Of a stretch of DNA of 42,760 nucleotides, positions 529-675 are shown piece after piece. This DNA comes from Candidatus Acetothermia bacterium (GTDB taxonomy: Bacteria > Bipolaricaulota > Bipolaricaulia > Bipolaricaulales > Bipolaricaulaceae). The stretch lies in NCBI GenBank assembly GCA_003562845.1, contig PWTL01000008.1, positions 1-42,760 of the forward strand. Direction: 5' to 3'. A model generated the notes under the pieces. That model was not told the origin of the DNA. It searched no databases and saw only the letters and a list, made by a program, of their open reading frames with translations. The position numbers and the translations under genes were made by a program. How positions within the stretch are numbered: position 1 is the first letter of the stretch; every line of letters starts with the position of its first letter.

Positions 529-549
529 AAAAAACCGGACCACCGGTTT
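529..549 (-). terminator. Intrinsic terminator directly after the riboswitch aptamer (expression platform)
   Basis: Minus strand AAACCGG-TGGT-CCGGTTT followed by a T run. Confidence 0.8.
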
Positions 550-624
550 CGTCCCGGCAGCCCGGCAGCCCGATCTGGGTCCGCGGCTTTGCGCCCTCAC
601 CTTCCAGTGAGTTTGCCCTTTACA
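549..624 (-). ncRNA. c-di-GMP-I (GEMM-I) riboswitch
   Basis: Minus strand AAAGGGCAAACTCACTGGAAGGTGAGGGCGCAAAGCCGCGGACCCAGATCGGGCTGCCGGGCTGCCGGGA: conserved GGGCAAAC, GNRA hairpin, GGGCGCAAAGCC, GCTGCCGGGCTGCC. Confidence 0.85.
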
Positions 625-646
625 GGACCTCTAAACCCTACAATAC

Positions 647-675
647 ATCATATGGGCGCAGGGGAGACCTGTCAA
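647..675 (-). promoter_or_regulatory. Sigma-70 type promoter for the riboswitch/MshEN-like gene
   Basis: TTGACA (675-670), 17-nt spacer, TATGAT (652-647) on minus strand. Confidence 0.75.

Follow-up and report, generated by a model that had tools for sequence, protein, structure and literature searches.

The end of a 42.8-kb contig from a metagenome-assembled genome of the Bipolaricaulota (OP1/Acetothermia) carries a locus that quite probably combines an antitermination riboswitch of the ON type, a probable regulator composed of ribbon-helix-helix (RHH) and MshEN-type domains, and a translational riboswitch, all directed at c-di-GMP. The genome comprises 1.45 Mb in 127 contigs and is 85% complete; the contig, analysed over its whole length, is referred to below as the window. 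On the minus strand, the order of elements is promoter, first aptamer (RS1), terminator, a gene for a 107-aa protein, second aptamer (RS2) and the start of a surface-protein gene. RS1 (626–552) is a genuine riboswitch of a known class, as the first-pass annotation had proposed: the Rfam covariance model for c-di-GMP-I (GEMM-I) riboswitches, RF01051, gives 59.1 bits (cut-off 35, E value 2.7e-11). The minus-strand interval assigned to it there, 529–675, was exact; RS2 was absent from that annotation. What is new is the layout, in which a predicted ON switch, a probable RHH-MshEN regulator and a further switch ahead of a surface-protein gene occur together and are conserved in the phylum.

The 107-aa protein is encoded at 487–164 on the minus strand, beginning 65 nt past the RS1 aptamer. 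It comprises a predicted RHH domain (approximately residues 2–42) and a domain built from MshE-type c-di-GMP motifs (residues 46–100). The gene had previously been read as MshEN-like, and that part of the reading is borne out by NCBIfam model NF053729 (60.2 bits, cut-off 38), which matches 23 of 23 homologues. The predicted RHH character of the N-terminal half had been missed; Pfam RHH_1 was found in 14 of 23 homologues, with a best E value of 4.4e-5, whereas the window protein, searched singly, gave no such match. Pfam alone detected neither domain in the window protein, the best match being FumaraseC_C, below threshold, and the MshEN part was found by NCBIfam and profile searches. A profile search of PDB sequences matched PilF, PilB and MshE.

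The conserved N-terminal half reads MQVTLYYSxEDxYLxxLVDxxAxRERKSRSAVILSILEEYFE. The C-terminal half contains two copies of the 24-residue MshE motif (RLGxx..LxxxLxxQ) with its conserved Gly and Gln, and all 58 sequences compared share G48, Q69, G79 and Q100. The opening Arg of motif II is replaced by Q77 in the window and is present in only 9 of 58 sequences, and the spacer between the motifs is of 7 residues, not 5, in 51 of 58. An AlphaFold2 model (pLDDT 88.8) places helices at residues 9–25 and 29–42; the strand of an RHH fold would need a dimer. In Foldseek comparisons, the C-terminal half resembled MshE with bound c-di-GMP (5htl) with a probability of 1.00, at 1.1 Å over 56 columns. Matches to Arc, CopG and CdbA, which presumably arise from the N-terminal half of the model, had probabilities of 0.5–0.9 for the most part and E values above 1. 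To judge from sequence and model, the protein has an MshE-type fold with most of the ligand contacts, and is predicted to bind c-di-GMP. The fusions of MshEN named in the main text of PMC5013675 are with ATPase, glycosyltransferase, REC, HD-GYP, CheA, CheX, cyclase and kinase partners, and RHH is absent from those named there. A literature search for RHH and MshEN together returned incidental co-mentions only.

The 107-aa product is probably a small c-di-GMP-responsive DNA-binding regulator, with an RHH domain and an MshE-type pocket. It is possible, though unlikely, that it serves instead as a nucleoid-associated protein resembling CdbA, or as a buffer of c-di-GMP, rather than as a gene-specific regulator. 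Here the predicted RHH part is joined to a distinct domain for c-di-GMP, whereas CdbA is not known to have an MshEN domain, and both the linkage to a surface-protein operon and the promoter dyad described below suggest local regulation. Such a role would nevertheless be in keeping with the presence among the Foldseek matches of CdbA, itself a c-di-GMP-binding RHH protein (PMC7156744), and, concerning the protein only, it would be compatible with an ON switch at RS1. The genome of the window also encodes a paralogue of the RHH-MshEN protein, at G000:C98:2490–2798, with no c-di-GMP-I aptamer nearby.

If the product is a local regulator, its own promoter is one place where it might act. As had been claimed, a sigma-70-type promoter (minus strand, 675–647) precedes RS1, with TTGACA at 675–670, a spacer of 17 and TATGAT at 652–647; 11 of the 12 positions match the consensus. 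No second promoter-like site was found within positions 1–2000 of the window (shuffled sequences yield 0.3), and the aptamer is preceded by a matching promoter in 27 of 31 leaders. An inverted repeat, GACATGTGTC (GACA-N2-TGTC; 688–679, minus strand), is positioned just ahead of the −35 box. The pattern GAC[AG]NN[TC]GTC occupies that position in 16 of 30 RS1 leaders, compared with 0.125 occurrences per kb in the background; the leaders that carry it are related sequences, and it is shared though much of the flanking sequence differs.

Genome-wide, strict copies of the dyad were not enriched (three sites vs five for a reversed control), and the dyad was essentially absent upstream of other riboswitch promoters. 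One strict copy is situated at the start of a gene for an ECF-type sigma factor (G000:C33:61702–61713; L155). The dyad is also missing from homologues without riboswitches, with the exception of L106. Two of these loci, L105 and L106, have decayed aptamer-like leaders (CCTGATCAAGGCCAACCCATCGCGAAGGTGGGG...), below the Rfam thresholds and approximately 60–130 nt before the RHH-MshEN gene, in which the promoter persists together with the dyad or a sequence close to it. The comparison with riboswitch-less homologues was dropped as uninformative because of these leaders, which indicate that the dyad follows the RS1-type promoter. From its sequence and position, the repeat at 688–679 may be considered a candidate operator, for the RHH protein or for another factor.

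The sign of regulation by RS1 depends on its terminator. The conserved terminator (minus strand, 566–529) has its 5′ arm at 566–554, its loop at 553–547, its 3′ arm at 546–534 and a T-run at 534–529. The stem, of 13 bp and followed at once by the T-run, was chosen both by folding and by a terminator scan. The 5′ arm, GCCGGGCTGCCGG, doubles as the 3′ strand of the RS1 aptamer. Relatives strikingly have the same overlap, with ...GCCGGGCTGCCAGG in the aptamer and, later, ...CCTGGCAGCCCGG-TTTT. The terminator had earlier been taken to be a separate hairpin, AAACCGG-TGGT-CCGGTTT; that hairpin exists (549–532, minus strand) as a weaker and non-conserved alternative, and the conserved terminator is the overlapping stem instead. 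In the window, the predicted free energies are −25.0 kcal/mol for the overlapping stem and −8.9 kcal/mol for the local hairpin (−5.5 kcal/mol without the U-tract), and when the U-tract is left out, the values are −24.8 kcal/mol for the long stem and −5.0 kcal/mol for the local hairpin's core. All 30 leaders are predicted to have this overlap of aptamer and terminator, with medians of −26.2 kcal/mol for the overlapping stem and −3.2 kcal/mol for the best hairpin wholly after the aptamer.

The overlapping stem is also supported by covariation. When 25 leaders were aligned, 91% of cells could pair, compared with 24–57% in slid controls. The score for pairing and covariation lay above every shuffled and every slid control. 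Compensatory changes on both sides were seen in 12 cells, a figure reached by none of 500 shuffles; since the leaders are related, this should not be taken as a probability, although relatedness is preserved in the slide control. The covarying pairs include a change from C-G to U-A in six sequences and a change from A-U to G-C carried by the window. Taken together, the shared strand and the compensatory changes argue that the aptamer and the terminator exclude each other, as they do in the pilM riboswitch of Geobacter metallireducens, and the predicted sign of RS1, from sequence and by analogy, is thus ON. The proposal of a full transcription-control riboswitch with its own promoter can be retained; the separate hairpin would suggest an OFF switch or no switch, and ON is predicted here instead. 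The terminator fold of the window is favoured over the aptamer fold (−51.4 vs −42.5 kcal/mol), a difference that could be made up by tight binding of the ligand.

An antiterminator formed by extension of P1 (5′ GGUUU with AAACC) would be possible in the window (−34.9 kcal/mol). It was dropped, as the 5′ leader of the sister genome G001 differs (L067 starts GTTATAGAGG, at a contig end), and the pairing is superfluous given the overlapping terminator.

The local hairpin shares its 3′ arm with the long stem and can form beside the folded aptamer, so that ligand-bound RNA may terminate in part in this species. In the extreme case, c-di-GMP would be bound with little response because either hairpin terminates, as has been reported for Bacillus thuringiensis Bc1, whose response is hidden by a second terminator (PMC11218506). 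One 3′ arm and one U-run are indeed common to both hairpins here. Such weak responsiveness appears improbable, as the local hairpin is held by only four G-C pairs on top of its A/U pairs, most relatives have the overlap but no strong local hairpin, and neither the sequence nor the promoter is damaged. An OFF switch, in which the ligand-bound aptamer coexists with the hairpin at 549–532 and the long stem (566–534) is the alternative fold, must be regarded as quite improbable. Aptamer and terminator do coexist in the OFF switch Cd1 of Clostridioides difficile (PMC9262584), and the local hairpin is real and can fold beside an intact aptamer. Against this, the U-run directly after the long stem marks that stem as a terminator, not an antiterminator; the long stem is much the stronger of the two without the U-tract; and most relatives, as the median above indicates, have no strong local hairpin. 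An antitermination ON switch is accordingly the reading retained for RS1.

The bases that contact the ligand were examined in both aptamers. The P2 loop of RS1 is GGAA, and G20, A47 and C92 (Vc2 numbering) are canonical in RS1 and RS2 alike. The base aligned with Vc2 position 20 is G, in agreement with the first-pass annotation, and the A20 of cGAMP (GEMM-Ib) riboswitches is absent from RS1. Among 60 switches (RS1, RS2 and 58 others beside homologous genes), G20 is present in 59, and A47 and C92 in all 60. Hypr-type cGAMP synthases are expected to have Ser in place of the Asp of the GHxxGD motif. The five GGDEF domains of the genome are all of the GG[DE]EF type and all have the Asp of GHxxGD; the Hypr-type Ser occurs in none of the five. 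The G at position 20 and the normal GGDEF domains favour c-di-GMP over cGAMP and, with the canonical contact bases, make c-di-GMP the likely ligand of RS1. It is highly improbable that RS1 is instead a c-di-GMP-I-GGC variant or a cGAMP-type (GEMM-Ib) switch: although its best cmscan match is RF03167 (c-di-GMP-I-GGC; 59.2 bits, cut-off 59, E value 1.3e-11) and MshEN is described in the main text of PMC5013675 as binding cGAMP too, more weakly, RF01051 scores almost the same for this stretch, position 20 is G and not A, no Hypr-type Ser was seen, and the GGC label is rejected in view of the A at position 47 of RS1 and RS2, where the RF03167 consensus, as read from its name and model, has G. The upstream switch at L101:5850–5947 has A20 (GAGCAAAC), a cGAMP-type GEMM-I signature unlike the 59 others, and its ligand may differ from theirs.

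RS2 (minus strand, 141–67; 50.7 bits, cut-off 35) lies 22 nt past the stop codon of the 107-aa gene. The gene behind it is cut by the contig end, and its Shine-Dalgarno sequence GGAGGAGG (58–51) and first 15 codons occupy 58–1 of the minus strand. The sister genome G001 has this aptamer too, and there the gene behind it encodes a giant secreted protein of at least 1964 aa (locus L067) with DUF11/DUF7507 repeats. In other families, the genes behind RS2 encode secreted proteins with Ig, DUF11, cadherin or PKD repeats. Across the family, RS2 is mostly found 12–65 nt past the stop codon and 15–27 nt before the next start, with no U-run. It usually contains CCTC or a longer match at aptamer positions 46–49, complementary to the Shine-Dalgarno sequence; in the window, this is CCTCC at 93–89 on the minus strand, by which translation would be switched. 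Longer matches occur in relatives (e.g. GACCTCCC in L068), but several of these complementarities are no longer than in shuffles. In L076, L079, L081 and L122, the gap after the aptamer is wider and the translational model does not fit. The spacing, the lack of a U-run and the complementarity together suggest, less firmly than in the case of the RS1 terminator, that RS2 is an intercistronic switch which acts on translation and shares one message with RS1.

Of the 100 Bipolaricaulota genomes searched, 75 encode the RHH-MshEN protein, as do 33 of the 38 of high quality. In Rfam scans of homologues with enough flanking sequence, an upstream c-di-GMP-I aptamer, 44–70 nt before the start codon, was present in 29 of 56, a downstream aptamer shortly past the stop codon in 24 of 56, and both in 20 of 54. 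With only six c-di-GMP-I aptamers in the 1.45 Mb of the window's genome, the association of riboswitch, gene and riboswitch is far from chance. Just upstream in the window is a gene for a predicted secreted S8 subtilase (minus strand, 1800–751). This neighbour is kept in part of the family, often with a riboswitch of its own, although no aptamer was detectable for the subtilase gene in the window. At eight loci (L073, L082, L085, L087, L088, L090, L093 and L095), a third c-di-GMP-I aptamer is situated approximately 1.2 kb upstream; at the loci checked, it precedes the S8 subtilase gene. Other arrangements were also observed. At L103:3223–4086, two RHH-MshEN genes are in tandem with a riboswitch in between, and at G000:C46:5615–5753 (L001 and L006), in the genome of the window, two c-di-GMP-I aptamers approximately 7 nt apart form a contiguous tandem switch before the gene for a 134-aa secreted protein.

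These features can be combined in a model. Without ligand, the 3′ strand of the RS1 aptamer would pair downstream to form the strong terminator, and the 107-aa gene would be off. With c-di-GMP bound, P1 and P3 of the aptamer would hold that strand, and polymerase would read through. The RHH-MshEN regulator might then act on its own promoter at the dyad (688–679). The message would continue into RS2, where c-di-GMP probably frees the Shine-Dalgarno sequence of the giant surface protein. One signal would in this way gate transcription, regulator activity and translation of the surface protein, and this signal seems to be sensed two or three times along one message, with the switching-on of surface proteins as the outcome. 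The fuller proposal of a phylum-wide circuit, in which c-di-GMP is sensed by the antitermination riboswitch, by an RHH-MshEN protein that binds GACA-N2-TGTC at its own promoter and by the intercistronic translational riboswitch, is put forward tentatively, as somewhat less probable than not.

At this locus, a single operon would sense the same signal both through an RNA and through a protein, in an uncultured phylum on whose riboswitches a literature search returned nothing. If the RHH-MshEN protein binds DNA in a c-di-GMP-dependent manner, it would represent a compact (approximately 107 aa) new class of transcription factor among c-di-GMP effectors. Sensing c-di-GMP twice or three times offers a testable explanation of how graded input could be turned into a sharp switch to the surface-attached state.

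Several known systems may be compared with the one described here. The RS1 aptamer resembles Vc2 of Vibrio cholerae (RF01051) in its score, in G20, A47 and C92, and in the GNRA loop on P2; the difference from members of that family such as Vc2 is that the aptamers here flank the gene of a protein with a c-di-GMP domain, one before and one after it. The pilM riboswitch is a cGAMP-responsive ON switch in which terminator and aptamer are mutually exclusive (PMC9262584). RS1 shares with it the GEMM-I fold, a terminator likewise formed from the 3′ strand of the aptamer and, by prediction, the ON sign. Its ligand is cGAMP and its target a pilus gene, whereas RS1 has G20, and a regulator and a surface protein as targets. 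Tandem c-di-GMP-I riboswitches (PMC9481103) similarly place several aptamers for the same ligand on one message, but the known doublets and triplets are contiguous, while here a gene lies between the aptamers and the second switch seems to be translational. With the MshEN proteins, as presented in the main text of PMC5013675, the 107-aa protein has in common the two 24-residue motifs, the NF053729 score above cut-off and the fold of c-di-GMP-bound MshE; it differs in the 7-residue spacer, in a motif II without the first Arg and in the predicted fusion to RHH. Finally, CdbA of Myxococcus xanthus (PMC7156744) is an RHH protein linked to c-di-GMP, as is predicted for the 107-aa protein, in which, by contrast, the ligand domain is a separate fused module.
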